Below are positions 1,062 through 29,944 of a stretch of 64,000 nucleotides of DNA, piece after piece; the first letter of the stretch is position 1, and each line of letters opens with the position of its first letter. The notes under the pieces were generated by a model. It was not told the origin of the DNA. It was given only the letters and a program-made list of their open reading frames with translations, and ran no database searches. A program made the translations under genes and the position numbers. Source of the DNA: Micrococcus flavus (GTDB lineage: Bacteria > Actinomycetota > Actinomycetes > Actinomycetales > Micrococcaceae); the NCBI RefSeq assembly GCF_014204815.1, contig NZ_JACHMC010000001.1, forward strand, positions 186,001-250,000, read 5' to 3'.

Positions 1062-2426
1062 TCAGTGGTGCGCCTTGGCGTCGGCGATCACGTCCACGCC
1101 GAGCTCGTCGTGCTCGTGGTCGTGCAGGTTCCGGTCCTGGATGCCCTTGGGGACCATGGAGACGGCCACCAGCGAGATCAGGGAGATGACGATCATGTAG
1201 CCGGCCACCCAGGTCCAGCCGTTCGGCAGGAGCAGGTCGGCGATCAGCGGGGCGAACGCGCCGCCGATGATGGCGCCGATCGCGTAGCCGATGGACACGC
1301 CGGAGAAGCGCACCTTGGCCGGGAACATCTCGGCGTACATGGCGGACTGCGGCCCGTACGACGGGCCGAGGCCGAGGGTGAGGACGAACAGGGCCGCGGC
1401 GAACAGCGGCAGCGAGGCGGTGTTCATCATCAGGAACATCGGGATGGACCAGATGATCAGGAACGCGTAGCCGAGCTGGAAGGTGAGACGGCGCCCGATC
1501 TTGTCCGAGATCCAGCCGCCGAACAGGGTGAACAGGAACCAGCCCGCGCCGCCCACGAGGGCCGCGGTCAGGGTCTCGGTGGGCTCCATGCCCAGGTTCT
1601 TCTGGCCGTACTTGGCGAACCAGGCGATCACGAGGTATCCCACCGCGTTGTTGGCGGCGAAGATGAGCGCGGCCAGGACCACGGTCCTGGTGTGGTTGCG
1701 GAACAGGTCGCCGAGCGGGGCGGACTCGTCCTTCTTCAGCTGCTGCATCTCCTTGAAGACCGGGGACTCCTCGACGGCCTTGCGGATGATGTGGCCCACG
1801 AGGATCAGGACCACGGAGAGCAGGAAGGGCACGCGCCAGCCCCACTCGAGGAAGGCCTCCGGGCTCATGGACGCGCGGACGGCGAACAGGACGCCCGTGG
1901 CCATCAGCATGCCGAGCGGCACGCCCACCTGCGGGGCGGAGCCGAAGAGGCCGCGCTTGCCGTGCGGGGCGTGCTCCACGGAGAGGAGGGCTGCGCCGCC
2001 CCACTCGCCGCCGGCGGAGAAGCCCTGCAGCAGGCGGAGCAGGACGAGGAGGATCGGGGCCCACACGCCGATCTGGGCGTAGGTGGGCAGCAGACCGATG
2101 AGGACGGTGGCCGCGCCCATGCCGATCAGGGTCATCGAGAGGACGATCTTGCGGCCGAACCGGTCGCCCATGTGACCGGCGACGATCGCGCCGAGCGGGC
2201 GGACGAGGAAGGAGATGCCGAGGGACGCCCACGAGGCGATCTGGGCACCCTGCGCGCCCATGGGTGCGAAGAACAGGGGGCCGAGGATGAGGGCGGCGGC
2301 CTGGGCGTAGATGAAGAAGTCGTACCACTCGATGGTGGTGCCGACGAGCGTGCCGGCGAGGACCTTGCGCTCCTCGCGGGGGTCGCGGGCGGCCGAGGTG
2401 GCCGGAGAGGCGACGGTGTGGCTCAT
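1062..2426 (-). CDS. MHS-family (metabolite:H+ symporter) MFS transporter
   Basis: This 454-residue protein has about 12 hydrophobic segments and the MHS hallmarks: an early WYDFF motif in TM1 and the MFS motif A forms GDRFGRK after TM2 and SDKIGRR in the second half. Relatives (ProP, KgtP, ShiA, benzoate and phenylacetate carriers) import organic acids with protons. The ATG at 2426 follows AGGAG at 5-nt spacing; in-frame codons further upstream have no such support. Its promoter carries both a PaaR-like dyad and the GTATAC operator of the homoprotocatechuate genes, so phenylacetate or hydroxyphenylacetate is the likely cargo. The substrate is inferred. Confidence 0.85.
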   Translation of the reverse strand: MSHTVASPATSAARDPREERKVLAGTLVGTTIEWYDFFIYAQAAALILGPLFFAPMGAQGAQIASWASLGISFLVRPLGAIVAGHMGDRFGRKIVLSMTLIGMGAATVLIGLLPTYAQIGVWAPILLVLLRLLQGFSAGGEWGGAALLSVEHAPHGKRGLFGSAPQVGVPLGMLMATGVLFAVRASMSPEAFLEWGWRVPFLLSVVLILVGHIIRKAVEESPVFKEMQQLKKDESAPLGDLFRNHTRTVVLAALIFAANNAVGYLVIAWFAKYGQKNLGMEPTETLTAALVGGAGWFLFTLFGGWISDKIGRRLTFQLGYAFLIIWSIPMFLMMNTASLPLFAAALFVLTLGLGPSYGPQSAMYAEMFPAKVRFSGVSIGYAIGAIIGGAFAPLIADLLLPNGWTWVAGYMIVISLISLVAVSMVPKGIQDRNLHDHEHDELGVDVIADAKAHH

Positions 2427-2485
2427 GGGTGCTCCTGGGGTGCGGGGCTTGATCGCGTGGCTCGAGACGGCGCGACGCGCGATGT

Positions 2486-2501
2486 GACCGACCGGTCGGT
2501 C
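2486..2501. promoter_or_regulatory. PaaR-like 16-bp palindrome in the transporter promoter
   Basis: GACCGACCGGTCGGTC is a perfect palindrome 60 bp upstream of the transporter start. It contains ACCG-N2-CG-N2-CGGT, which, as far as I recall, is the core of the TetR-family PaaR box described in corynebacteria. A one-sided form lies in the paa promoter at 7411-7432. Confidence 0.6.
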
Positions 2502-2519
2502 GGGAAGTGACACGGGTCA

Positions 2520-2529
2520 CCGTATACGA
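2520..2529. promoter_or_regulatory. GTATAC-type operator in the transporter promoter
   Basis: CCGTATACGA (minus strand TCGTATACGG) is nearly identical to palindromes at the hpaHI, hpaD and FAH-RraA promoters. It lies about 95 bp upstream of the start codon and 19 bp from the PaaR-like dyad. The candidate reader is the GntR protein at 27597-28286. Confidence 0.6.
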
Positions 2530-2612
2530 CTTCCTGTGACTCGCACCACGCGCCCAGGTCATGACGGGATTGTGACGCCCGGCGTCCGGACGGAGACGAC
2601 GACGGTGACACG

Positions 2613-3499: not shown

Positions 3500-4660
3500 T
3501 CACGCGTCGAAGTCGACGGTGATGGCGTCGCCGGTGGGACGGGTCTGGCAAGTCAGGATGTACCCGTTGTCCACCTCGTCCTTCTCGAGCGCGTAGTTCT
3601 CCTCCATCGTGAACTCGCCCTCGGTGACCTTGGCGCGGCAGGTGCCGCACACGCCGCCGGCGCACGCGAACGGGACGTCGGAGCGCACGCGGAGGGCGGC
3701 GTTGAGGATCGTCTCGTGCGCGGACTTCGGGGACTCGACCTTGCCGGTGGTGCCGTCGAGGGTGAACTCGATGGTCACGTTGTCGCCCGAGGGGTCGGCC
3801 TCGATCGGGCGGCCCGCGTCGCCCTGCGGGCGCTCCGGACGGCCGGTGGTGAACAGCTCGAAGCGGACGTCGTCGTCGGCCACGCCGCGCTCGGAGAGCG
3901 TGTCCCGGGCCATCTGGACGAGCTCGAACGGGCCGCACAGGAACCACTCGTCCGTGTTCTCCACGTCGATCACGCGGTCCAGCAGCGTCTCGAGCTTCTC
4001 GGCGTCGATGCGCCCGGACAGCAGCGGGGCCACCCGCTGCTCGCGGGAGAGCACGTGGTAGACGGCGAAGCGGGACGGGTACTTGTCCTTGAGGTCGCCG
4101 ATCTCCTCCGCGAACATCACGTCCATGGCGGAGCGGTTCGCGTAGATGAGGCTGAAGCGGGCGGTCTCGGACGCGGCCAGCACCGACTTGGCGATCGCCA
4201 TGATCGGGGTGATGCCCGAGCCGGCGGCCAGGGCCACCAGGTCGACCTGGCCGTCCTTCACGGCCTGCGCCGCCACGGCGTCCGGGTTGTTCATGGAGGT
4301 GATGCCCGTGCGGGACGTGAACGCGCCCTGCGGGTTCATCACGTCGATCCTCTCGCCGACCTCGAGGCGCTCGTTGGCCCACGTGGAGAACTTGCCGCCG
4401 AGGTCCTTCTTCACGGCCACGCGGATCTCGCCGCGCTGCGGCACGGCGCAGATCGAGTAGGACCGGCGCAGCTCCTGGCCGTCGATCTCCTTGCGCAGGG
4501 CCACGTACTGGCCGGGGAGGTAGTCGTAGTCGTCCGCAAGCTCGTCGGGGACCGCGAAGGTCACCTCCACGGAGTCGTCGGTGAGCTTGCGCAGCTCGGA
4601 CACCTCGAGGGCGTTGAACGTCGCGCGGCGCTTGGCGGGGGCGGCGGTGGTCTCGGTCAT
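3500..4660 (-). CDS. paaE: Phenylacetyl-CoA 1,2-epoxidase reductase subunit PaaE
   Basis: This 386-residue reductase passes electrons from NADPH to the di-iron epoxidase PaaAC. The N-terminal half is an FNR-type FAD/NAD module: a flavin-binding RRSYSIC near residue 63 and a nucleotide-binding GSGITPIMAI near residue 147. The last 90 residues are a plant-type [2Fe-2S] ferredoxin with CAGGVCGTC and a fourth cysteine in LTCQT. The ATG at 4660 overlaps the paaD stop (TGATG), indicating translational coupling. Confidence 0.95.
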   Translation of the reverse strand: MTETTAAPAKRRATFNALEVSELRKLTDDSVEVTFAVPDELADDYDYLPGQYVALRKEIDGQELRRSYSICAVPQRGEIRVAVKKDLGGKFSTWANERLEVGERIDVMNPQGAFTSRTGITSMNNPDAVAAQAVKDGQVDLVALAAGSGITPIMAIAKSVLAASETARFSLIYANRSAMDVMFAEEIGDLKDKYPSRFAVYHVLSREQRVAPLLSGRIDAEKLETLLDRVIDVENTDEWFLCGPFELVQMARDTLSERGVADDDVRFELFTTGRPERPQGDAGRPIEADPSGDNVTIEFTLDGTTGKVESPKSAHETILNAALRVRSDVPFACAGGVCGTCRAKVTEGEFTMEENYALEKDEVDNGYILTCQTRPTGDAITVDFDA

Positions 4661-5169
4661 CAGTGCACCTTGAAGTAGTCGAAGGGCTCCAGGCACTCCC
4701 GGCACGTGTACAGCGCCTTGCAGGACGTGGAGCCGAAGCGGGTGATCTCACGGGTGTTCAGGGAGTGGCACCGGGGGCACTTCACGGCCAGGCCGATCCG
4801 CACGGGTCCGTCCACGGTGCGGGCCGCGGGCGGGGCGATCCCGTACTCGGCCAGCTTGGCCTTGCCCTCGTCCGTCATCCAGTCCGTGGTCCACGCCGGC
4901 TGGAGGACCAGCCGCACCTCGGACTCCTCGAACCCCGCGCCCTTCAGGGCGCGGGAGACGTCCGTGGTGATGGTGTCCATGGCGGGGCACCCGGAGTACG
5001 TGGGGGTGATGACGACGACGGCCTTGTCGCCCTCCGCGTGCGCGTCCCGGAGGATCCCCAGGTCCGCGATGGACAGCACGGGGATCTCCGGGTCGTGCAC
5101 GGTGGAGGCCGCATCCCAGACCCGCGCGTCGACGGGGTCGGCGGGGCGCAGCTTGCTGGCGGTGGTCAC
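4660..5169 (-). CDS. paaD: Phenylacetate pathway Fe-S assembly protein PaaD
   Basis: This 169-residue protein combines a DUF59/MIP18 domain (PEIPVLSIADLG near residue 28, GCPAMD near residue 60) with a C-terminal zinc ribbon built from CPRC and CREC pairs plus a cysteine between them. PaaD is thought to help assemble the Fe-S cluster of PaaE or mature the epoxidase. The start is GTG at 5169, overlapping the paaC stop as GTGA, which fits coupled translation; no good Shine-Dalgarno precedes it. Confidence 0.93.
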   Translation of the reverse strand: MTTASKLRPADPVDARVWDAASTVHDPEIPVLSIADLGILRDAHAEGDKAVVVITPTYSGCPAMDTITTDVSRALKGAGFEESEVRLVLQPAWTTDWMTDEGKAKLAEYGIAPPAARTVDGPVRIGLAVKCPRCHSLNTREITRFGSTSCKALYTCRECLEPFDYFKVH

Positions 5170-5999
5170 CAGGAGGCCCCCGGGTGACGACGGGCCAGGG
5201 ACTGCATCTCGGCGAGGATGTAGCCGCGGTACTCGCTCATCTCGCCGGAGCGGTCGCCGCCGCGGGCCACGCCCGTGTCGGGGACCTGCAGGCCGGCGGC
5301 CTCGATGGCCGCGCGGATGCGGGTCATCGTGGGCTCCTCGAGCGAGGACGGCAGGACGGCCACCCCCTGCTCCGCGAGGGGGCGGGTCACGTCGTCGTCG
5401 TGGAAGAGCTCGGGCAGGTAGGGCCACAGCTCGTCCAGGCCGCGCTGCATGCGGCGCTTGGACTCCTCGGTGCCCAGGCCCAGGCGGTTCACCCACTGCT
5501 CGGCGTGGTCCTGGTGGTACAGGACCTCCTTCAGGGCCTTGTCCGCGATCGCCGCGAGGGTGGCGTCCGTGGACTCGCGCAGCCGGGAGTACAGCTCGTA
5601 CGCGTAGAACGAGTAGTACAGCTGGCGGGCGATGGTCTTGCCGAAGTCGCCGTTCTCGGCCTCCACGAGGCGGACGGAGCGGAACTCCTCCTCGTCGCGG
5701 AAGTAGGCGAGGTCGTCCTCCGACGTGCCCCACGCCGTGCCGGCGTAGGACAGGAGGAAGCGGGCGTGGCCCACCAGGTCCAGGGCGATGTTGCCGAGCG
5801 CGATGTCCTCCTCGAGCTCGGGGGCCCGGGAGATCCACCAGGAGAGGCGCTGGCCGAGCATCAGGGCGTCGTCGCCGAGGTAGGTGGCGTAGCGTGCCAC
5901 CTCCTCGGAGGCCCTCTGGTCGCCCGAGGCGATCTCCTCGGCCGTGATGGCCACGCCGGCGGAGTGCTTGGTGGCCGTGTCGTTGGTCGCGAAGCTCAC
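5166..5999 (-). CDS. paaC: Phenylacetyl-CoA 1,2-epoxidase structural subunit PaaC
   Basis: This 277-residue protein is the ferritin-like structural partner of PaaA. LGDDALMLGQRLSWW near residue 42 and YHQDHAEQW in the middle are characteristic of PaaC. It stabilises PaaA but is not itself the catalytic di-iron subunit in studied systems. The GTG start at 5999 overlaps the paaB stop as GTGA. Confidence 0.95.
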   Translation of the reverse strand: MSFATNDTATKHSAGVAITAEEIASGDQRASEEVARYATYLGDDALMLGQRLSWWISRAPELEEDIALGNIALDLVGHARFLLSYAGTAWGTSEDDLAYFRDEEEFRSVRLVEAENGDFGKTIARQLYYSFYAYELYSRLRESTDATLAAIADKALKEVLYHQDHAEQWVNRLGLGTEESKRRMQRGLDELWPYLPELFHDDDVTRPLAEQGVAVLPSSLEEPTMTRIRAAIEAAGLQVPDTGVARGGDRSGEMSEYRGYILAEMQSLARRHPGASW

Positions 6000-6328
6000 A
6001 GGTGCGGCACCCCCTCGGACTTCTGGTAGTAGGTCGCGTGGCGGTAGGACTTGCCCTGCGGCGACTCGAAGAAGCCGCCCTTGGAGTCCGGATCGGACGC
6101 GGCCACGGCGTCCGCGGGGACGACCCACACGGAGGTGCCCTCGTTGCGGCGCGTGTACAGGTCGCGTGCGTTGCGCAGCGCCATGGTGGCGTCCGGGGCG
6201 TGCAGCGAGCCGGCGTGCACGTGGGAGAGGCCGCGGTTCGCGCGGACGAAGACCTCCCACAGCGGCCACTCGTTGTTCGCGGCGGTGTCGTCCTTGGCCG
6301 GCATCTGAGCCGCCTTGTTCTCGGTCAT
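5996..6328 (-). CDS. paaB: Phenylacetyl-CoA 1,2-epoxidase subunit PaaB
   Basis: This 110-residue protein matches PaaB: WPLWEVFVR near the N-terminus and a central AGSLHAPDA. PaaB bridges the catalytic PaaAC and the reductase PaaE in the multicomponent epoxidase. It starts three bases after the paaA stop codon and overlaps paaC by four bases. Confidence 0.95.
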   Translation of the reverse strand: MTENKAAQMPAKDDTAANNEWPLWEVFVRANRGLSHVHAGSLHAPDATMALRNARDLYTRRNEGTSVWVVPADAVAASDPDSKGGFFESPQGKSYRHATYYQKSEGVPHL

Positions 6329-7410: not shown

Positions 7411-7432
7411 ACTGACCGTTCGTTCAGGATAG
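7411..7432. promoter_or_regulatory. PaaR-like operator overlapping the paa -10 box
   Basis: ACTGACCGTTCGTTCAGGATAG matches the remembered PaaR consensus ACT-N-ACCG-N2-CG in its left half; the right half is degraded (CAGGATAG instead of CGGT-N-AGT). It covers the -10 box and probable start site, the position expected for a repressor. Confidence 0.55.
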
Positions 7433-9745: not shown

Positions 9746-11659
9746 TCAGCGGGCGTCGAGCAGCACGCCGGCGAAGAACGCGTTGAGGCGCTCCACCTCG
9801 TCCAGGCCGAAGACGCCGGAGACGTAGTGGTCCGGGCGGACCACCACCACGGCGCCGTCGCGGCTGATGCCGCGGGCGTCGAAGATGTCCTCGCCGTGCT
9901 TGGCCCGGCACGTGGCGAAGATGTTGTTCAGGTCGATCAGCCCCAGGGGCCCGGTGGTCGGGCGGAACACGGCCGGGACGTCCGGGTGGGCGAACTCGGT
10001 CTGCTTCTGCTGGTAGACCACCTTGATGTCGAACCGCGCGTCCTGGGGGCCGTCGGCCGGGGTGTGCCGGTTCCGGAAGGACTGCGGGTCCTCCTCGACC
10101 GCCTGCGCCCACGCGGCGACCTTCGAGTCCGCGTCCTGCGGGGCGGCGGCGTCGGCGAAGACGTACACGCGCCAGCGCCCGTCCGCCCGGTGCAGATGGC
10201 CCAGGTGCTTGACGTTGGTGTCGCACGAGCGCTCCACCAGGGCGGACGTGAAGCGCTTGCCGATCGGGAAGCCCGTGGCCAGCTCCTGGCCGGTGCCGTC
10301 CGTGGTGAGGAGGGAGGGCTGGTACTCGGTCATGAAGCCCGCGGGGAACTCGGCGGTCTTGGTGTAGAACTCCGCCACCTCGTTGGGATCGCCCAGCTCG
10401 GAGGTGGGCTTGGCCATGAGCGTCGACCACTCCTTGTCGAAGTCGATCAGGTTCTTGGCGATGTCCTTGCGCTCGTCGCCGTAGGTCGGCACCAGCTCGA
10501 CGGGTGCGATGCCGGAGAGCACCTGGCCCAGCTTCCAGCCCAGGTTCCAGCCGTCCTGCATGGACACGTTCATGCCCTGGCCGGCCTTGGCGGAGTGGGT
10601 GTGGCAGGCGTCGCCGAGCAGGAACACGTTCGGGCGGCCCACGCGCTCGCGGTTGTCGAACCCGGAGGTCAGGCGGTGGCCCACCTCGTACACCGAGTGC
10701 CAGGGCACCTCCTTCACGTCCAGCGTGTAGGGGTGGAGGATCTGCTGGGCCCGGCGGATGACCTCCTCCAGCGGGGTCTGGCGGACCTTGCCGCCGTCGT
10801 CCTCCGGGACCACGCCGAGGTCCACGTAGAGGCGGAACAGGTGGCCGCCCTCGCGGGGGATGAGCAGGATCGAGCCCTGGTTCGAGTGGATCGCGCACTT
10901 CGTCCGGATGTCCGGGAAGTCGGTCACCGCGAGGGTGTCCATGACGCCCCAGGCGTGGTTGGCGGCGTCGCCGGAGAGCGAATGGCCGATCGCCTTGCGC
11001 ACGCGCGAGCCCGCACCGTCCGCGCCCACCACGTACCGGGCGCGCACCTGACGGAGCTCGCCCTGCTGCGGGTCCTCGAGCGGGGCGCCCTCGGCGTCGA
11101 CGGTGCGGCGCAGGGTGACGGTCACGGGGTGCTCGCCCTCGCCGGAGTCGTCCAGGCCCTCGAAGGCCCAGCCGTAGTCCGGCCGGGCGCGGGTGGGGGA
11201 GTTCTCCATGTACTCGGCGAACCAGTCCAGGATCCGGGCCTGGTTCACGATCAGGTGGGGGAACTCGGAGATGCCCTCGGGGTCGTCCTCGGCGAGCTGC
11301 GTGCGGACGATGGTCGACGGGTTCTCCGGGTCCGGGTTCCAGAAGGCCATGGAGGTGAGGTCGAAGGCCTCGTCGATGATCTCGCTCGCGAAGCCGAACG
11401 CCTGGAAGGTCTCCACCGAGCGCGCCTGGATGCCGTCCGCCTGGCCGATCTCCAGGCGGTGGGGGCGGCGCTCCACGATGCGCGTGTGCACGTCCGGGAA
11501 CATGGCCAGCTGGGCGGCGGCGATCATGCCGGCCGGGCCGGTGCCGACGATCAGCACGTCCATCTCGTCCGGGAGCTCGGCGGGACGGTCCAGGCCCACG
11601 CCCGCGGCCGGGTGGATGCGGGGATCGGTGGAGACGTAGCCGTGGTGGTGGAAGAGCAT
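9746..11659 (-). CDS. FAD-dependent aromatic hydroxylase (3-hydroxybenzoate 4-monooxygenase / phenol 2-monooxygenase type)
   Basis: This 637-residue flavoprotein has the three class A monooxygenase fingerprints: GTGPAGMIAA near residue 40, the DG-containing segment VVGADGAGSRVRKAIG, and the GD motif VFLLGDACHTHSAKAGQGMN near residue 345. The long C-terminal thioredoxin-like domain and total length match MobA (3-hydroxybenzoate to protocatechuate) and phenol hydroxylases rather than the 400-residue p-hydroxybenzoate hydroxylase. The ATG at 11659 follows GAGAGG. It is divergent from an IclR regulator, with two matching dyads between them. Which phenolic acid it takes cannot be read from the sequence. 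Confidence 0.85.
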   Translation of the reverse strand: MLFHHHGYVSTDPRIHPAAGVGLDRPAELPDEMDVLIVGTGPAGMIAAAQLAMFPDVHTRIVERRPHRLEIGQADGIQARSVETFQAFGFASEIIDEAFDLTSMAFWNPDPENPSTIVRTQLAEDDPEGISEFPHLIVNQARILDWFAEYMENSPTRARPDYGWAFEGLDDSGEGEHPVTVTLRRTVDAEGAPLEDPQQGELRQVRARYVVGADGAGSRVRKAIGHSLSGDAANHAWGVMDTLAVTDFPDIRTKCAIHSNQGSILLIPREGGHLFRLYVDLGVVPEDDGGKVRQTPLEEVIRRAQQILHPYTLDVKEVPWHSVYEVGHRLTSGFDNRERVGRPNVFLLGDACHTHSAKAGQGMNVSMQDGWNLGWKLGQVLSGIAPVELVPTYGDERKDIAKNLIDFDKEWSTLMAKPTSELGDPNEVAEFYTKTAEFPAGFMTEYQPSLLTTDGTGQELATGFPIGKRFTSALVERSCDTNVKHLGHLHRADGRWRVYVFADAAAPQDADSKVAAWAQAVEEDPQSFRNRHTPADGPQDARFDIKVVYQQKQTEFAHPDVPAVFRPTTGPLGLIDLNNIFATCRAKHGEDIFDARGISRDGAVVVVRPDHYVSGVFGLDEVERLNAFFAGVLLDAR

Positions 11660-11698
11660 CGTGATCCTCTCCGGCCCGGGGCGGCGGGCGCGGGGTGT

Positions 11699-11733
11699 GT
11701 TCTCTCAGGGAACAGGGCGTTCGCAGAGGGAAC
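11699..11733. promoter_or_regulatory. Two tandem GTTC-N7-GAAC dyads in the divergent promoter
   Basis: GTTC-TCTCAGG-GAAC (11699-11713) and GTTC-GCAGAGG-GAAC (11719-11733) have centres 20 bp apart, two helical turns. The spacers share CAG/GCAG and AGG content. A further half site, GTTC, lies at 11768-11771. They sit between the hydroxylase and iclR-type genes and are the obvious operators of the IclR protein. Confidence 0.6.
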
Positions 11734-11795
11734 GCGCGTGTGCCAGACTCTACGCGGACGTGATCCCGTTCACAACAGCGCCGCCGAGGAGGAAC

Positions 11796-12560
11796 GTGCA
11801 GCCCGACCCGCAGGACGCCCCGCAGGCCCGCCCCGCCGGCGTCCGCCCCGACGCCCCCTCCCAGACGCTCTCCCGGGCCCTCACGATGCTCGAGGCGGTG
11901 GCCGAGCGCGAGACTCCGCCGAGCATCGCCGAACTCGCGGAGGCGGTGGACGTCCACCGCTCGGTGGCCTACCGGATGCTGCGGACCTTCGAGGTCCACG
12001 GGCTGCTGCGGCGCGACGCGGCCGGCCTGGTGCGCGGGGCCCCCGGCCTGGTCACCCTGGCCGGCGGCGTGGAGCAGGATCTGCGGGCGGCCGCCCTGCC
12101 GGAGCTCACGGCCGTCTCCGCGGACCTCGGCATGACCGCGTTCCTGGTGGTGTGGGACGGCCGGGACTGCCTGACCCTCACCACGGTGGAGCCGCCGCGC
12201 GGCAACCTCGTGACCCAGCGTCCCGGCACGCGTCATCCGCTGGGCGTCGGGGCGCCCGGCGTCGCGATCGCCGCGGCGCTGTCCGCGGAGGAGCGGGAGC
12301 GACTGGGACGCGCGGACGACGAGGCGGCCGGCCCGCTCACCGGCCCGAGGATCGAGGAGGCCCGCACGCGCGGCTGGGCGCAGTCCCGGGACGAGGTGAT
12401 CACCGGCGTCGGCTCGGTCGCCGCCCCCGTCCCGGCGCCCGGGCGCATGCCGGCCGCGCTCGCCGTCGTCTTCACGGCGCCCTCGGTGGACCATGGGGCG
12501 GTGGGCGAGCGGCTGACGGCCGCCGCGCAGCGGCTCTCGGCCGCCCTCGGGGAGATCTGA
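11796..12560 (+). CDS. IclR-family transcriptional regulator
   Basis: This 254-residue protein has an N-terminal winged helix-turn-helix (PSIAELAEAVDVHRSVAYR near residue 45) and a C-terminal effector domain. GTG at 11796 preceded by GAGGAGG is chosen over upstream codons, which would place the start inside the divergent promoter. IclR proteins next to aromatic hydroxylase genes usually respond to the substrate. It probably controls the divergent 637-residue hydroxylase through the dyads at 11699-11733. Confidence 0.85.
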   Translation: MQPDPQDAPQARPAGVRPDAPSQTLSRALTMLEAVAERETPPSIAELAEAVDVHRSVAYRMLRTFEVHGLLRRDAAGLVRGAPGLVTLAGGVEQDLRAAALPELTAVSADLGMTAFLVVWDGRDCLTLTTVEPPRGNLVTQRPGTRHPLGVGAPGVAIAAALSAEERERLGRADDEAAGPLTGPRIEEARTRGWAQSRDEVITGVGSVAAPVPAPGRMPAALAVVFTAPSVDHGAVGERLTAAAQRLSAALGEI

Positions 12561-22510: not shown

Positions 22511-22521
22511 ATCGTATACGA
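22511..22521. promoter_or_regulatory. GTATAC-type operator of hpaHI
   Basis: ATCGTATACGA is the same palindrome as at hpaD and the FAH-RraA gene. On the minus strand it contains the -10-like TACGAT, so a bound regulator would cover the promoter. Confidence 0.65.
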
Positions 22522-22620
22522 CGCCCCCGGGGCCGCCGAGAGTGCGGTGCCGCGCCCTTCCGTGCCGCGCCGCCCTCCCCTGCGCCGCCCGTCGTCCCTC
22601 CGGCCGAGTGCGCCGGAGCG

Positions 22621-24457: not shown

Positions 24458-25624
24458 TCAGAGCTGGTTGCCCAGCTTGTACTCGCCCTTCTTGTACTCC
24501 GGCATGGAGTCCTCGCCCTCCTCGGCGCGGGTGTAGGAGAAGCCGTCGGCGCCGATGGTCACGGCCATCTCGGACTCGTCGGTGCGGGCCACGACCTCCT
24601 GGACGTTGCCGTCGAGGTCCAGCACGAGCGAGGCGTCCGTGTACCAGGACGGCACGACCGGGGTGCCCCACCAGTCGCGGCGCTGGTTGTCGTGCACGTC
24701 CCAGGTGACCACGGGGTTGTCCGGGTCGCCGGTGTAGTAGTCCTGGGTGTAGATCTCCACGCGGTGGCCGTCCGGGTCGCGCAGGTAGAGGTAGAAGGCG
24801 TTGGAGACGCCGTGGCGGCCGGGGCCGCGCTCGATCGCATCGGACATGCGCAGGGCGCCGAGCTTGTCGCAGATCGCCAGGATGTTGTGCTTCTCGTGGG
24901 TGGCGAAGGCGACGTGGTGCATGCGGGGGCCGTCGCCGCCCGTCATGGCGGTGTCGTGCACGGTGGGCTTGCGGCGCATCCACGCGGCGTACACGGTGCC
25001 GTTCTCGTCCTGGATGTCCTCGGTGACGCGGAAGCCCAGGTCCTGCATGTAGCGGGCGGCGCGCGGCACGTCCGGGGTCACCTGGTTGAAGTGGTCCAGG
25101 CGCACCAGGGCGCCGGGGGTGTACAGGTCGTAGCGCCAGGCCAGGCGCTCCACGTGCTCCACCTCGTGGAAGAACTCGTAGGGGAAGCCCAGCGGGTCCT
25201 CGACGCGCACCGAGTCGCCGACGCCCTTCACGAATCCGTTCTCGTTGCGTTCCACGCGGCAGCCGAGCTCCTCGTAGAAGGCCACGGCCTTGTCCAGGTC
25301 CTCGGGGGTGCGGACGCGGTAGGAGAACGCGGCCACGGCGGCCACGTCGCCCTTGCGCAGGATCAGGTTGTGGTGGATGAACTCCTCCATGGAGCGCAGG
25401 TACACCGTGTCCTCGTCCTCCTCGGTGACCACGAGGTCGAGCACGTCCACGTAGAACCGGCGCGAGGCCTCGAGGTCGGTGACCACCAGCTCCATGGACG
25501 CGCAGCGCAGCACGTCCGGGGCCTCGGCCTGCGGGGTGGGGATCGGGTTCTCCGTCTTCACGGGGCCCTCCTGGCCCACGTAGAAGCCGGAGGAGGTCTT
25601 CTGGCGGTTCTCGAGGTTGCTCAT
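24458..25624 (-). CDS. hpaD: 3,4-dihydroxyphenylacetate 2,3-dioxygenase
   Basis: This 388-residue type I extradiol dioxygenase opens the ring of homoprotocatechuate. The metal triad is H178, H237 and E290; the 59- and 53-residue gaps equal those of H155/H214/E267 in the Brevibacterium fuscum enzyme, and the Arthrobacter Mn-dependent enzyme is a close relative. N- and C-terminal glyoxalase-fold domains are evident (MELVVTDLEASRRFYVD and HHVAFATHEKHN). The ATG at 25624 follows AGGAG. The gene has its own operator at 25693-25706. Confidence 0.95.
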   Translation of the reverse strand: MSNLENRQKTSSGFYVGQEGPVKTENPIPTPQAEAPDVLRCASMELVVTDLEASRRFYVDVLDLVVTEEDEDTVYLRSMEEFIHHNLILRKGDVAAVAAFSYRVRTPEDLDKAVAFYEELGCRVERNENGFVKGVGDSVRVEDPLGFPYEFFHEVEHVERLAWRYDLYTPGALVRLDHFNQVTPDVPRAARYMQDLGFRVTEDIQDENGTVYAAWMRRKPTVHDTAMTGGDGPRMHHVAFATHEKHNILAICDKLGALRMSDAIERGPGRHGVSNAFYLYLRDPDGHRVEIYTQDYYTGDPDNPVVTWDVHDNQRRDWWGTPVVPSWYTDASLVLDLDGNVQEVVARTDESEMAVTIGADGFSYTRAEEGEDSMPEYKKGEYKLGNQL

Positions 25625-25692: not shown

Positions 25693-25706
25693 GATCGTAT
25701 ACGATC
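25693..25706. promoter_or_regulatory. Perfect 14-bp GATCGTATACGATC operator of hpaD
   Basis: This is the most symmetrical copy of the motif shared by the homoprotocatechuate promoters. It lies 69 bp upstream of hpaD and contains TACGAT, a likely -10 box, on the minus strand. Confidence 0.7.
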
Positions 25707-26039: not shown

Positions 26040-27584
26040 TCAGCCGTCCATCTTCGCGGCGGCCTGCTCCTGCTTGCCGAACACCGGGTTGTGGACCTCG
26101 CCGAGGTTGATGTGCACGGCCTGCTGGTCGGTGTAGAAGTCGATCGAGCGGTAGCCGCCCTCGTGGCCCAGGCCGGAGGCCTTCACGCCGCCGAACGGGG
26201 TCCGCAGGTCGCGCACGTTGTTGGAGTTCAGCCACACCATGCCGGCCTCGACGTCCTGCGCGACGTTGTGGGCGCGCTTGAGGTCGTTGGTCCAGATGTA
26301 GGCGGCCAGGCCGTACTTGGTGTTGTTCGCCAGCTCGAGGGCCTCCTCGTCCGTGTCGAACGGGGTGATGGCCACGACCGGGCCGAAGATCTCCTCCTGG
26401 AAGATCCGCGCGTCGGGCTTGACGTCCGCGAACACAGTGGGGCGCACGAAGTTCCCCTCCGGGAACTCCTCCGGGCGGCCGCCGCCGGCCACGAGGCGGG
26501 CCTCGGACTTGCCGATCTCCACGTAGGACATGACCTTCTCGTAGTGCTCGGGGTGCACGATCGCGCCGACCTCGGTGGTCGGGTCGTTCGGCAGGCCGAC
26601 CTTCACGCGGTCCGCCTGGGCGGCGTAGCGCTCGACGAACTCGTCGTACACCTCGCGCTGGACGAGGATGCGCGAGCCGGCGGTGCAGCGCTCGCCGTTG
26701 AGGGAGAACACGCCGAAGATCGTGGCGTCGATCGCGGTGTCCAGGTCCGCGTCCGCGAAGACGACCGCCGGGGACTTGCCGCCGAGCTCCATGGACAGGC
26801 CCTTCAGGTGCGGGGCGGCGTTGGCGAAGATGATCTGGCCGGTGCGGGACTCGCCGGTGAAGGAGATCAGCGGCACGTCCGGGTGCTTCACGAGCGGGTC
26901 GCCCGCGAAGCCTTCCTCGCCGAAGCCGTGGACCATGTTGAACACGCCCTTCGGCAGGCCGGCGTCCTCGAAGATCTCCGGCCACAGGGACGCGGAGAGC
27001 GGGGTGAACTCGGCCGGCTTGAGCACCACGGAGTTGCCGGTGGCGATGGCCGGGGCCAGCTTCCAGGACTCGAGCATGAACGGGGTGTTCCAGGGGGTGA
27101 TCAGGCCCGCGACGCCGATCGGCTTGCGGTTGACGTAGTTGGCCTGGCGGCCGGGCACCTTGAAAGCGTCGTCGTGCTGGGCCACGATCAGGTCCGCGAA
27201 GAAGCGGAAGTTCTCCGCGGCGCGGGCGGCCTGGCCTCGGGCCTGCGCGATCGGCAGGCCGGTGTCGAAGCACTCCATGGCGGCCAGCTGGTCGCCGCGG
27301 GTCTCCATGATGTCGGCGATCCGGTGCAGCACGCGGGAGCGGGCGCGCGGCAGGGCCTGGGACCACTCGCCGCCCTCGAACGCGGCCTTCGCGGCGGCCA
27401 CGGCGCGGTCGATGTCCGCGGCCTTGCCGGAGGCGGCCTGGATGTACGGCTGGTTGGTCACCGGGTCGAGGACGTCGAACGTGTCGCCGTCGATCGAGTC
27501 GACGAGCTCGCCGTCGATGTAGTGGCGGATGACGTCGGGCAGGCCCTCGGGCGCGCGGGCCTCGATGCTGGTCTTCTCCGTCAT
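26040..27584 (-). CDS. hpaE: 5-carboxymethyl-2-hydroxymuconate semialdehyde dehydrogenase
   Basis: This 514-residue aldehyde dehydrogenase would oxidise the ring-cleavage product of HpaD with NAD+. It has FTGESRTGQI (NAD binding), ELGGKSPAVVF with the catalytic glutamate near residue 265, and NGERCTAGSRI with the catalytic cysteine near residue 300. Location in the hpa cluster identifies the substrate. It begins 12 bp after the GntR gene, with GAGAAGAGG as ribosome site, so it is the third gene of the FAH-RraA/gntR/hpaE operon. Confidence 0.92.
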   Translation of the reverse strand: MTEKTSIEARAPEGLPDVIRHYIDGELVDSIDGDTFDVLDPVTNQPYIQAASGKAADIDRAVAAAKAAFEGGEWSQALPRARSRVLHRIADIMETRGDQLAAMECFDTGLPIAQARGQAARAAENFRFFADLIVAQHDDAFKVPGRQANYVNRKPIGVAGLITPWNTPFMLESWKLAPAIATGNSVVLKPAEFTPLSASLWPEIFEDAGLPKGVFNMVHGFGEEGFAGDPLVKHPDVPLISFTGESRTGQIIFANAAPHLKGLSMELGGKSPAVVFADADLDTAIDATIFGVFSLNGERCTAGSRILVQREVYDEFVERYAAQADRVKVGLPNDPTTEVGAIVHPEHYEKVMSYVEIGKSEARLVAGGGRPEEFPEGNFVRPTVFADVKPDARIFQEEIFGPVVAITPFDTDEEALELANNTKYGLAAYIWTNDLKRAHNVAQDVEAGMVWLNSNNVRDLRTPFGGVKASGLGHEGGYRSIDFYTDQQAVHINLGEVHNPVFGKQEQAAAKMDG

Positions 27585-27596
27585 GGGGTCCTCTTC

Positions 27597-28286
27597 TCAG
27601 TTCTGGTGGTTGAGGTAGGCGTGCAGGGTGTTGAGTCGGTGGGCGCGGGCCGCGGCCTCGATCTCGGCGAACGGGGCGCCGGCCTCGATCAGCCGCAGCA
27701 GCTGCTCGTGCTCCTCCACGGAGGCGCGAGCTCGGCCGGGCACGTACGCGAACGTGGAGGAGCGCAGCGCGGCCAGGCGGGTCCAGCCGCGGTGCACGAG
27801 GTCGTGCACGTGCTCGTTCTGGTGGTGCTCGAACAGGATCGAGTGGAAGCGCCGGTTGAGCTCCGTGAAGGCCACCGGGTCCCACGTCTCGTCCGAGGCG
27901 GCCAGCTCCCGCATGGCCTGGTTCACCTCGCGGGCGGCCGCGATGTCCTGGGCGGTCACGTGCGGGGCGCACTGGGCGGTGGAGAAGCCCTCCACCAGCG
28001 CCAGCGTCTCCATGGTGTGGCGGTACTCGACCGGGTCGATCCCCACCACCGTGGCGCCCACGTTGCGCTCGTAGGCCACGAGCCTCTCGGACTGCAGGCG
28101 GCGGATGGCCTCGCGCACGGGGACCACGGACATGCCGAGCTCCGCGGCGATCTGGGAGAGCACCAGCCGGTCGCCCGGCTCGTGGCGCTGGTCCCGGATC
28201 CCCGCGAGGATCGCCTGGTAGGCGCGGTCCGCCTTGGAGGCGGTGGCGCCTCCCGGGCTCGCCTGTCCCGTGTCCGTGCGGGTCAT
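27597..28286 (-). CDS. GntR-family regulator (FCD type), probable regulator of the hpa genes
   Basis: This 229-residue protein has a winged helix-turn-helix (GDRLVLSQIAAELGMSVVPVREAIRRL near residues 40-66) and an all-helical FCD effector domain with the metal-binding D-x4-H, H-x3 and H pattern starting at NRRFHSILFEHH. The ATG overlaps the preceding stop codon (ATGA). It is encoded inside an operon whose promoter contains the ATCATATACGATC site, so autoregulation through that site and control of the other GTATAC promoters is the simplest model. Regulator and site have not been linked experimentally here. Confidence 0.88.
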   Translation of the reverse strand: MTRTDTGQASPGGATASKADRAYQAILAGIRDQRHEPGDRLVLSQIAAELGMSVVPVREAIRRLQSERLVAYERNVGATVVGIDPVEYRHTMETLALVEGFSTAQCAPHVTAQDIAAAREVNQAMRELAASDETWDPVAFTELNRRFHSILFEHHQNEHVHDLVHRGWTRLAALRSSTFAYVPGRARASVEEHEQLLRLIEAGAPFAEIEAAARAHRLNTLHAYLNHQN

Positions 28287-29923
28287 GCTCGCCCGTCGCC
28301 CGCCGGCTGCGGGGCCTCCGGCAGGGTCTTGCGGTACTCGTCGAACGTGGCCTTCCACTCGGCGTTCGGGGGGAACATCCCGTCCACCGGGTGGCCGGCC
28401 TTGACCTGCTCGTACGCCCAGGCGTCCTGGAGCTCCTGCTCGTAGGCGTCGTCCACGACCTCCTGGAGCAGGGACGGCGGGATGACGACGACGCCGTCGT
28501 CGTCACCGACGATGATGTCGCCGGGCTGCACGGTGGTGCCGCCGCAGGCGATGGTGCCGCCGACCTCCCAGGGGATGTGACGGCGGCCCAGCACGGCCGG
28601 GTGCGTGGCGCCGGCGTAGACCTGGAGGCCGACCTCGGCCACGGCGGCGGAGTCGCGGATGCCGCCGTCCGTGATCACGGCGTTCGCGCCGTTCACCTGG
28701 GCGCGCAGGGCCAGGACGTCCCCGAGGGTGCCGGTGCCGTGCTCGCCACGGGCCTCCATGACCACCACGTCGTCCGGCTGCACCGAGTCGATCGCCCGCT
28801 TCTGGGCGTTGAAGCCGCCGCCGAACTCCTTGAACAGGTCCTCGCGCTTCGGGACGTAGCGCAGGGTCTTCGCGTAGCCGAGGACGCGCCGACCCCGGTG
28901 GATCGGGCGCGGGCCGTCGATGGTCGCGTTCTGGATGCCGCGCTTCTGCAGCTGGGCGGTGAGGGTGGCCACCGCGATGGCGTCGATCTTGGCGCGCAGC
29001 TCCGGGGTGAGCAGCGTCCGGTCCGGCTGCGGCGCCGAGGGCACCCAGTGTCCGTCCGCGTCCACCGCCGAGGAGGCGGCGGGGGCGTCGTCGGACTTCG
29101 GAGCGAGGCCTGCGGCCTCAGCGCCGGCGGGCAGGAGGCCTGCGGCCTCGCGCGACCCCCAGGCCTCCTCGCGCTGGGTGTCGTCCACCTGCGGGCCGTG
29201 GCCGTAGTCGGCCATCGGGTGCTCGGACTCGGTCACGTGCGTCACCAGGCGGCCCGTGGAGGGCGCGCCGGGGGCGGTGGGGGCGTCCACCTCCACCTCG
29301 ACGACGTCGCCGGGCTGGGCCACGGACGAGCCGGCCGGGGTCCCGGTGAGGATGACGTCCCCCTCCTCGAGCGTCATGAGCTGGGAGAGGTCGGCCACGA
29401 GCTGGCCGAACGGGAAGACGAGTCCCTCGGTGGTGTCCTCCTGGACGACCTCCCCGTTGACCCACGTGCGCACGCGCAGCCCGGCGGGGTCCAGGTTCGC
29501 GGCCGCGATCACGGCCGGACCGAGCGGGGTGTAGCCGTCGCCGGACTTGTTCTTGACGTTCGAGCCCTTGTCTGCGTGGCGCAGGTCGTAGAGGCCCCAG
29601 TCGTTCGCGGCGGTGATCCCGGAGACGAACGACCAGCCCTCCTCGGGGCTGACCCGGCGGGCGGTGCGGCCGATGATCAGTGCGATCTCACCCTCGTAGG
29701 CCAGCAGCTCGGTGCCGGCGGGTCGCTCGACGGAGTCCCCGGAGCGGGCGATCGAGGTGCCGGCCTTGAGGAAGTAGCCGGGGAACTTCGGGGAGCGGCC
29801 GCGCTGGGCGATCCGGGAGGGGTAGTTCAGGTGCAGCGCCACGACCTTGCCTGGGCGGTTCTCACGGGCGGTGAAGTCCTGCTCGGTGACCGTGGGGGCG
29901 GCGGGCGATGTGCTCTGCGTCAT
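28283..29923 (-). CDS. Fusion of a fumarylacetoacetate hydrolase-type domain and an RraA-like aldolase/decarboxylase domain
   Basis: This 546-residue protein joins two domains. Residues about 1-225 are an FAH domain (YEGEIALIIGR, GITAANDWGLYD, GDVILTGTPAG), as in HpaG, which decarboxylates and isomerises the homoprotocatechuate intermediate. A low-complexity linker (about 225-315) leads to an RraA-like domain (320-520) with GDVLALRAQVNGA and TDGGIRD, the signature of the HMG/CHA aldolase-oxaloacetate decarboxylase family. E. coli HpaG instead has two FAH domains. The ATG at 29923 is chosen because TATGAT lies 7 nt upstream and overlaps the operator; an ATG at 29935 is inside the operator. Confidence 0.85.
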   Translation of the reverse strand: MTQSTSPAAPTVTEQDFTARENRPGKVVALHLNYPSRIAQRGRSPKFPGYFLKAGTSIARSGDSVERPAGTELLAYEGEIALIIGRTARRVSPEEGWSFVSGITAANDWGLYDLRHADKGSNVKNKSGDGYTPLGPAVIAAANLDPAGLRVRTWVNGEVVQEDTTEGLVFPFGQLVADLSQLMTLEEGDVILTGTPAGSSVAQPGDVVEVEVDAPTAPGAPSTGRLVTHVTESEHPMADYGHGPQVDDTQREEAWGSREAAGLLPAGAEAAGLAPKSDDAPAASSAVDADGHWVPSAPQPDRTLLTPELRAKIDAIAVATLTAQLQKRGIQNATIDGPRPIHRGRRVLGYAKTLRYVPKREDLFKEFGGGFNAQKRAIDSVQPDDVVVMEARGEHGTGTLGDVLALRAQVNGANAVITDGGIRDSAAVAEVGLQVYAGATHPAVLGRRHIPWEVGGTIACGGTTVQPGDIIVGDDDGVVVIPPSLLQEVVDDAYEQELQDAWAYEQVKAGHPVDGMFPPNAEWKATFDEYRKTLPEAPQPAGDGRA

Positions 29924-29928
29924 GCGGC

Positions 29929-29944
29929 GGATCATATACGATCC
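29929..29944. promoter_or_regulatory. Operator overlapping the -10 of the FAH-RraA/gntR/hpaE operon
   Basis: GGATCATATACGATCC is a palindrome with one mismatch pair, matching the hpaD operator. On the minus strand the -10 box TATGAT (29936-29931) lies inside it, 7 nt before the ATG, so binding would block a leaderless promoter directly. Confidence 0.7.

Follow-up and report, generated by a model that had tools for sequence, protein, structure and literature searches.

A PaaR-type box and a GTATAC box before an MFS transporter gene of Micrococcus flavus, with a proposal for dual control

The PaaR regulons of B. cenocepacia, Corynebacterium glutamicum and Thermus thermophilus, as described in an excerpt of PMC9493321, resemble the set reported here in their operator, in a TetR gene within the paa cluster, and in having boxes upstream of paaA, paaZ and further paa genes. 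The excerpted text of PMC2770484 gives the B. cenocepacia paaA operator, which is necessary for negative control, as ACCGACCGGTCGGT. The set in our window (the whole stretch analysed, 64,000 nt of Micrococcus flavus, C1:186001-250000 of genome G000, where C1 is the contig) differs in adding an MFS importer with a second, unrelated operator. The C. glutamicum PaaR study reportedly found a longer motif and an additional input from GlxR.

The second operator also has described counterparts. Atu1419, an FCD repressor of Agrobacterium fabrum, binds ATGTATACAT over -10 boxes (excerpt of PMC7797058). It shares with the case below a short palindrome around GTATAC, an overlap with a -10 element and the FCD domain, but governs hydroxycinnamic acid genes, a different pathway from hpa. 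According to an excerpt of PMC4494728, the FadR-subfamily consensus, GTM-N0-1-KAC, admits GTATAC, and most sites have a 3-nt gap between GT and AC; GTATAC fits as one of the less frequent sites with a 2-nt gap. In Escherichia coli W and Yersinia pseudotuberculosis the hpa-meta genes have a local repressor, HpaR (PMC7180172, in part). HpaR is a MarR protein, whereas the local regulator in the window is of the GntR/FCD type. The permeases HpaX (for 4-hydroxyphenylacetate) and PaaL (for phenylacetate) have the same presumed task as the transporter studied here. Each is bound to one pathway, and they belong to other transporter groups.

PaaR regulons and FCD operators are already known kinds. A search of titles and the openings of abstracts, mainly in the open-access literature and so saying little, brought up no apparent paper on a shared importer or on dual control, and the word 'transporter' is absent from the main text of PMC13186573, on PaaR across actinomycetes, as far as the excerpt goes.

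Two catabolic clusters and their boxes

PaaA, PaaC, PaaE and PaaZ scored above their NCBIfam cut-offs, and PaaK fell just under (628 against 646). The paaJ product passed the general thiolase cut-off and stayed below that for 3-oxoadipyl-CoA thiolase; PaaB and PaaI had no model at E 1e-40 and were named by eye. Boxes of the CTGAMCGNNCGGTCAG type stood before paaA in 11/11, paaJ in 9/9 and paaZ in 8/8 genomes of the genus. These counts are of true orthologues: what matched paaZ in G005 and G010 (~30% identical) and seven of the eleven ALDH matches (~35%) are other dehydrogenases and were left out. A preliminary description of this DNA had given the paa promoter a half-site at 7411. What stands there is a near-perfect full palindrome, and the half-site reading was rejected on its palindromic consensus positions across the genus (Table 1).

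The same description had noted that the window holds no paaR gene, which is correct. A search of the rest of the genome located, 13.4 kb to the left of the window, a TetR gene that comes after paaK and has its end at C1:172578. Its product scored above the TetR_N cut-off, and the gene adjoins paaK in all seven genomes where the two could be compared; the paaR row of G002, which starts at a fragment end, was ignored. A GTG after GAAGGAG at C1:171967 is the likely start of the gene, and the family searches used C1:171928-172578. We regard its product as a candidate PaaR and the predicted reader of the paa-type boxes. At C1:169973, before a paaI-like thioesterase gene, there is a further box, CCTAATGATCGTTCAG (score 13.7), one half of which departs from the other paa boxes; G006 has similar letters, and G008 some of them.

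The second cluster encodes a homoprotocatechuate meta pathway, for which HpaD and HpaE scored above their cut-offs and HpaH (348 against 351.5) and HpaI (290 against 368.8) fell short. Its hpaG-like gene fuses an FAA hydrolase domain to an RraA-like domain. The GntR/FCD regulator has an orthologue in the 10 other genomes of the genus (74-94% identical), and hpaD is likewise present in 11/11. Eight genes between 20778 and 29923 were scanned and not one encodes a transporter, a point in favour of an importer shared with the paa side.

GTATAC-type boxes precede hpaH, hpaD and the hpaG-like gene, and the operon-internal genes (ECH, paaE, paaB, hpaE and gntR) reached at most 8 of the 12 box positions. 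The box of the hpaG-like gene has the position -19 or -20 relative to the ATG in 10 of 11 genomes; in the eleventh (G010) the start was extrapolated. Seven nt separate box and ATG in the window, and 7 or 8 nt do so in those 10 genomes. So short a distance points to a leaderless message whose operator is on the -10. The GntR/FCD protein is most likely the reader of the GTATAC box.

Table 1. Coordinates of genes, boxes and predicted promoter elements in the window
Feature	Position	Strand	Evidence or remark
MFS transporter gene (Sugar_tr/MFS_1)	1062..2426	minus	ATG at 2426; PF00083 and PF07690 over cut-off
PaaR-type operator upstream of transporter	2484..2503	none	candidate; conserved register GACCGNNCGGTC at 2490-2501
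CRP/GlxR-like palindrome GTGA-N6-TCAC, GTGACACGGGTCAC	2507..2520	none	between both boxes; putative label
GTATAC box ACCGTATACGAC	2519..2530	none	proposed operator of hpa GntR/FCD regulator; GTATAC core 2522-2527
-10 hexamer TATACG	2521..2526	minus	predicted; inside GTATAC box
-35 region GTGGTG with half-matching CRP-like GTGG-N6-TCAC	2536..2549	minus	predicted; -35 at 2544-2549
paaE	3500..4660	minus	TIGR02160 508 bits, cut-off 420.8
paaC	5169..6002	minus	TIGR02158 308 bits, cut-off 133; start tentative
paaA	6332..7339	minus	TIGR02156 494 bits, cut-off 280
PaaR box of paaA, CTGACCGTTCGTTCAG	7412..7427	none	13/14 consensus positions in 11/11 genomes
GTATAC box of hpaH	22511..22522	none	10 to 12 of 12 positions in 9/9 genomes with the promoter
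hpaD, 3,4-dihydroxyphenylacetate 2,3-dioxygenase	24458..25624	minus	TIGR02295 428 bits, cut-off 321
GTATAC box of hpaD, perfect ATCGTATACGAT	25694..25705	none	11 or 12 of 12 positions in 11/11 genomes
hpaE	26040..27584	minus	TIGR02299 659 bits, cut-off 638
GntR/FCD regulator of hpa cluster	27597..28286	minus	PF00392 and PF07729 over cut-off; proposed GTATAC reader
hpaG-like fused gene	28286..29923	minus	NF009399 841 bits, cut-off 444; PF01557 and PF03737 over cut-off
GTATAC-type box of hpaG-like gene, ATCATATACGAT (+ strand)	29931..29942		11 or 12 of 12 positions in 11/11 genomes

The transporter gene and its promoter

The transporter gene has a flavin reductase gene on one side and the paa genes on the other. 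Its product belongs to the MFS (PF07690 and PF00083) and scores below the cut-off of its best NCBIfam model, TIGR00883 (metabolite/H+ symporter), with 393 bits against 443.45. Its closest named relatives are from Kocuria and other Micrococcaceae, in a comparison from which records very near the window may have been omitted. Two solved relatives were matched, both too remote to fix its substrate. We consider it most likely to be a proton-coupled importer, with phenylacetate and hydroxylated phenylacetates as its presumed substrates.

The preliminary description had placed a perfect ACCG-N2-CG-N2-CGGT palindrome and a GTATAC site within 45 bp of this promoter, and both are there, at 2487-2500 and 2522-2527. 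The palindrome is perfect over 16 bp if one letter is added at each side (GACCGACCGGTCGGTC, 2486-2501), and the 14-mer at 2487-2500 is letter-for-letter identical to the tested B. cenocepacia paaA operator. The register conserved in the genus is centred 2 bp away from that palindrome: GACCGNNCGGTC stands exact before the transporter gene in 11/11 genomes, and another register, shifted by 4 bp, is exact only in G000 and G009. Across the 11 genomes the box matches 11 to 14 of the 14 consensus positions, and its common variant, CCGACCGNNCGGTCGG, recurs before paaZ in five genomes. Unrelated coding DNA reaches 11/14 as well, so we did not accept every row at 11 as a PaaR box, and the weight is carried by the exact core and the place. 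Counts in the window were also dropped as a yardstick for this box, as one exact match to ACCGNNCGNNCGGT against 0.42 expected is uninformative; with one mismatch allowed there were 11 against 13.3 expected. Loose matches to the pattern are many: with at most one mismatch, TGACCGNNCGGTC was counted 89 times per strand and the reversed control 46 times.

GTATAC occurs three times in the window against 0.60 expected, a count reached in 4 of 100 shuffles. The longer pattern TCGTATACGA, with at most one mismatch, occurs four times against 0.21 expected (reached in none of 100 shuffles), and these four sites are those of the transporter gene and the three hpa genes. In the whole genome (2.55 Mb; G+C of the window 73.8%) there are seven copies of CGTATACG, three of which lie in the transporter, hpaH and hpaD promoters. 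Two others (C1:353940 and C1:2407534) are inside frames of coding character, and the remaining two are at 1228953 and 1732505. The box precedes the transporter gene in 8/11 genomes of the genus and is absent there in G001, G002 and G005, though these three have hpaD and the regulator. Where both boxes occur, their centres, measured in the conserved register, are 29 bp apart in seven genomes and 31 bp apart in the eighth.

We then scored the promoter with a PaaR matrix built from 28 paa boxes and a GntR matrix built from 31 hpa boxes, with no transporter site in either training set. For each motif it ranked fourth in 100 kb, after the genome's own three training sites, and in 2 Mb of random sequence scores as high were reached four times (PaaR) and never (GntR). 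The transporter's PaaR box scored 15.9, below the 23.8-26.4 of the paa boxes. With the hpa matrix the transporter site scored 15.6. In the same 100 kb, the next site was ATCGTATTTGTT at C1:164762 (15.3), a strong match outside the known clusters that is unexplained. Judged by their place and conservation, and not by counts alone, both boxes are beyond chance.

The GTATAC box appears to overlap the -10 element of the transporter promoter. The geometry GTGN-N6-(T/C)CAC-N9-TA occurs in 10/11 genus promoters and 11/80 promoters of wider relatives against 7/4000 random windows, figures that are not blind, as the pattern was first spotted by eye on some of these promoters and then counted, and in which the genus promoters are not independent. 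A standard sigma-70 scan of 2400-2700, which demands T at the sixth -10 place, gave no promoter, so that the transcription start is uncertain. This outcome slightly lowers the odds of the favoured proposal below and of its three-input version. From the predicted start, the PaaR box would lie at about +12 to +31.

A CRP-like palindrome lies between the two boxes in 7/11 genomes of the genus. Exact GTGA-N6-TCAC occurred within 200 bp in 8/11 genus and 13/80 wider transporter promoters, against 23/4000 random windows of the genome and 22/4000 of the wider loci, and was absent from the corresponding rows of paaA (0/11), hpaD (0/11), paaJ (0/9) and paaZ (0/10). Two CRP-type HTH proteins in the genome exceeded the family cut-off. 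The motif is enriched before transporter genes in several genera, and the promoter may have a CRP/GlxR-type input at this palindrome. Its position near the predicted start is an unusual one for a textbook activator.

Transporter promoters in other genera

The wider set comprised the best 80 of 585 transporter relatives, with boxes counted at a matrix score of 12 or more. A PaaR box preceded the transporter gene in 42/80, compared with 19/1486 control windows from the same loci, and a GTATAC-type box in 9/80, compared with 4/1486; as both matrices were built from one genus, boxes of other genera may be undercounted. Both boxes were present in five of the 80: three Kocuria, one Rothia and one Microbacterium, the last with a poor GTATAC match.

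For 50 of these 80 loci we also searched the genomes. At E 1e-60 there was a paaA in 49/50 and an hpaD in 46/50, so that both pathways accompany the transporter. A GntR relative (47-72% identity) was present in 47/50; two Nocardiopsis had paaA, no hpaD and only distant GntR matches. With hpaD and the regulator also in 11/11 genomes of the genus, presence or absence of a pathway gives almost no contrast against which to set the need for a box. In the nine loci inspected in other genera, sites with at most two mismatches stood before hpaG in six. Within 10 kb of the transporter gene, Kocuria, Rothia, Microbacterium, Leucobacter and Brevibacterium have paa genes, and the loci L017, L025, L029, L032, L034, L065 and L072 have several hpa genes; the genera with hpa genes nearby are Cryobacterium, Nesterenkonia and some Arthrobacter. 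These neighbours, paa genes in many genera and hpa genes in some, support a carrier useful to both pathways and are no proof of its substrates.

The layout itself, judged by eye, varies between genera. In four Kocuria (L008, L009, L010 and L016) a GTATAC-type box lies upstream of a separate promoter with a PaaR-like box, which is weak in L016. In the two Rothia, TCGTATATGAT covers the probable -10, and a PaaR-like box, weak in L020, lies ~50 bp upstream. Kocuria palustris carries ATCGTATATGGT and lacks a PaaR box, and another Kocuria, L013, shows no GTATAC-type box. In Cryobacterium algoritolerans (L072 10001-13744) the transporter gene comes directly before hpaG and gntR and has a GTATAC-type box and no PaaR box, an arrangement that amounts to a natural rewiring.

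Proposed readings of the promoter

What could two boxes do on one promoter? We propose that the candidate PaaR, product of the TetR gene behind paaK, occupies 2484-2503 and would block transcription until released by phenylacetyl-CoA, an effector suggested by analogy with PaaR elsewhere. The GntR/FCD protein would bind 2519-2530 over the predicted -10 and block the polymerase, and might be released by an acid or intermediate of the 3,4-dihydroxyphenylacetate pathway. With both sites on one predicted promoter the response would be AND-like and multiplicative, and leaky with one inducer, as two repressors on one promoter imply that both inducers are needed for full expression. Dual control of this promoter, as a prediction from comparison of genomes, is well supported. 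The full proposal, of two real operators for PaaR and GntR/FCD repressors on one promoter, a multiplicative response and an importer of phenylacetates, we regard as somewhat probable.

The preliminary description had inferred one importer shared by the phenylacetate and hydroxyphenylacetate pathways and read by two regulators. The shared importer stands in so far as there are two operator types, each common to one cluster and each with a candidate regulator; 4-hydroxyphenylacetate as its second acid is weakened by the negative HpaB search described below. Reading by two regulators is favoured by the two box types kept across most of the genus and is questionable in its simple form, with both boxes on one promoter. 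Stacking two repressors is an odd way to control an importer, which speaks against the proposal, and an AND-like gate is awkward: repression may be leaky, the substrates may usually arrive together, or we may have misread the layout. Further points against it are the three genomes with hpa genes and no GTATAC box at the transporter gene, the GntR relatives in 47/50 wider genomes beside a box in 9/80 wider promoters, and the 14 TetR-type matches of the genome, any of which might read similar DNA.

If the proposal is true, it offers Actinobacteria a candidate importer of phenylacetate and hydroxyphenylacetate and a candidate local hpa repressor of the GntR/FCD rather than the MarR type. It would also provide a natural series in which one promoter has been rewired as AND-like, OR-like or single-input with its inputs constant.

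A more elaborate version, which we put forward tentatively and think rather unlikely, is a three-input promoter, in which the -10 is the hpa operator, PaaR sits downstream and a CRP-like site lies between them, forming an AND-like gate that would let in phenylacetate-type acids fully only with both pathways induced; related genera would retain both inputs and rebuild the layout. On this account the promoter would be tandem and OR-like in some Kocuria, would have its PaaR box upstream in Rothia, and would be hpa-only in Cryobacterium algoritolerans.

Alternatively, the gene may encode a phenylacetate importer under PaaR only, with GTATAC an unbound by-product of an AT-rich -10 in a GC-rich genome. 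An accidental GTATAC is indeed likelier at an AT-rich -10 hexamer, and the box coincides with the predicted one. The PaaR box is also the more constant of the two (11/11 against 8/11 genomes), the three genomes without GTATAC keep TAnnnT at roughly the same place (by eye), and most wider relatives have the regulator and no such box. Such a by-product, however, does not account for the TCG and G flanks, which are kept in the eight genomes while neighbouring spacer letters vary, or for the rarity of CGTATACG, with three of its few genomic copies in the transporter, hpaH and hpaD promoters. Nor does it fit the four Kocuria noted above, where the box is upstream of the predicted -35 and -10 (by eye). 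We judge this alternative unlikely.

Those Kocuria are also an argument for two operators on two tandem promoters, one per regulator, such that either inducer suffices (OR logic). There, by eye, a GntR-type box with a -10-like core lies upstream of a GTGAC-N17-TAnnnT promoter, which is followed by the PaaR box. In the 300 bp next to the gene in the window, however, the promoter geometry is matched only once, at a place upstream of the PaaR box, and no second promoter is evident by eye between the boxes and the gene. This single-promoter objection is itself weak, given the negative sigma-70 scan. For M. flavus we hold OR logic to be quite improbable. Some TetR protein other than PaaR as the reader of the TetR-type site seems very doubtful. 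In favour of it are the 14 TetR-type matches in the genome and the many loose matches to the DNA pattern; against it are the recurrence of this box type at paaA, paaJ and paaZ throughout the genus, a transporter gene adjoining paa genes in M. flavus, and the 14-mer identical to the tested PaaR operator.

Under the favoured two-operator proposal, the second inducer is the less certain. The HpaB hydroxylase family (PF03241) had no match in the genome, and as a positive control it was matched in 4/14 genomes. With HpaB not found, 3,4-dihydroxyphenylacetate may be the second inducer and is a safer guess than 4-hydroxyphenylacetate. An Arthrobacter relative grows on 4-hydroxyphenylacetate and homoprotocatechuate and not on phenylacetate, according to an excerpt of PMC3534580. 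At 9746-12560, beside the paa cluster, the genes for a phenol 2-monooxygenase family FAD enzyme and an IclR-like regulator are divergently oriented. This enzyme might be a source of hydroxylated phenylacetates without HpaB. Within the paa region at L002:8750-9982 there is also a cytochrome P450-looking gene, with weak NCBIfam matches only.
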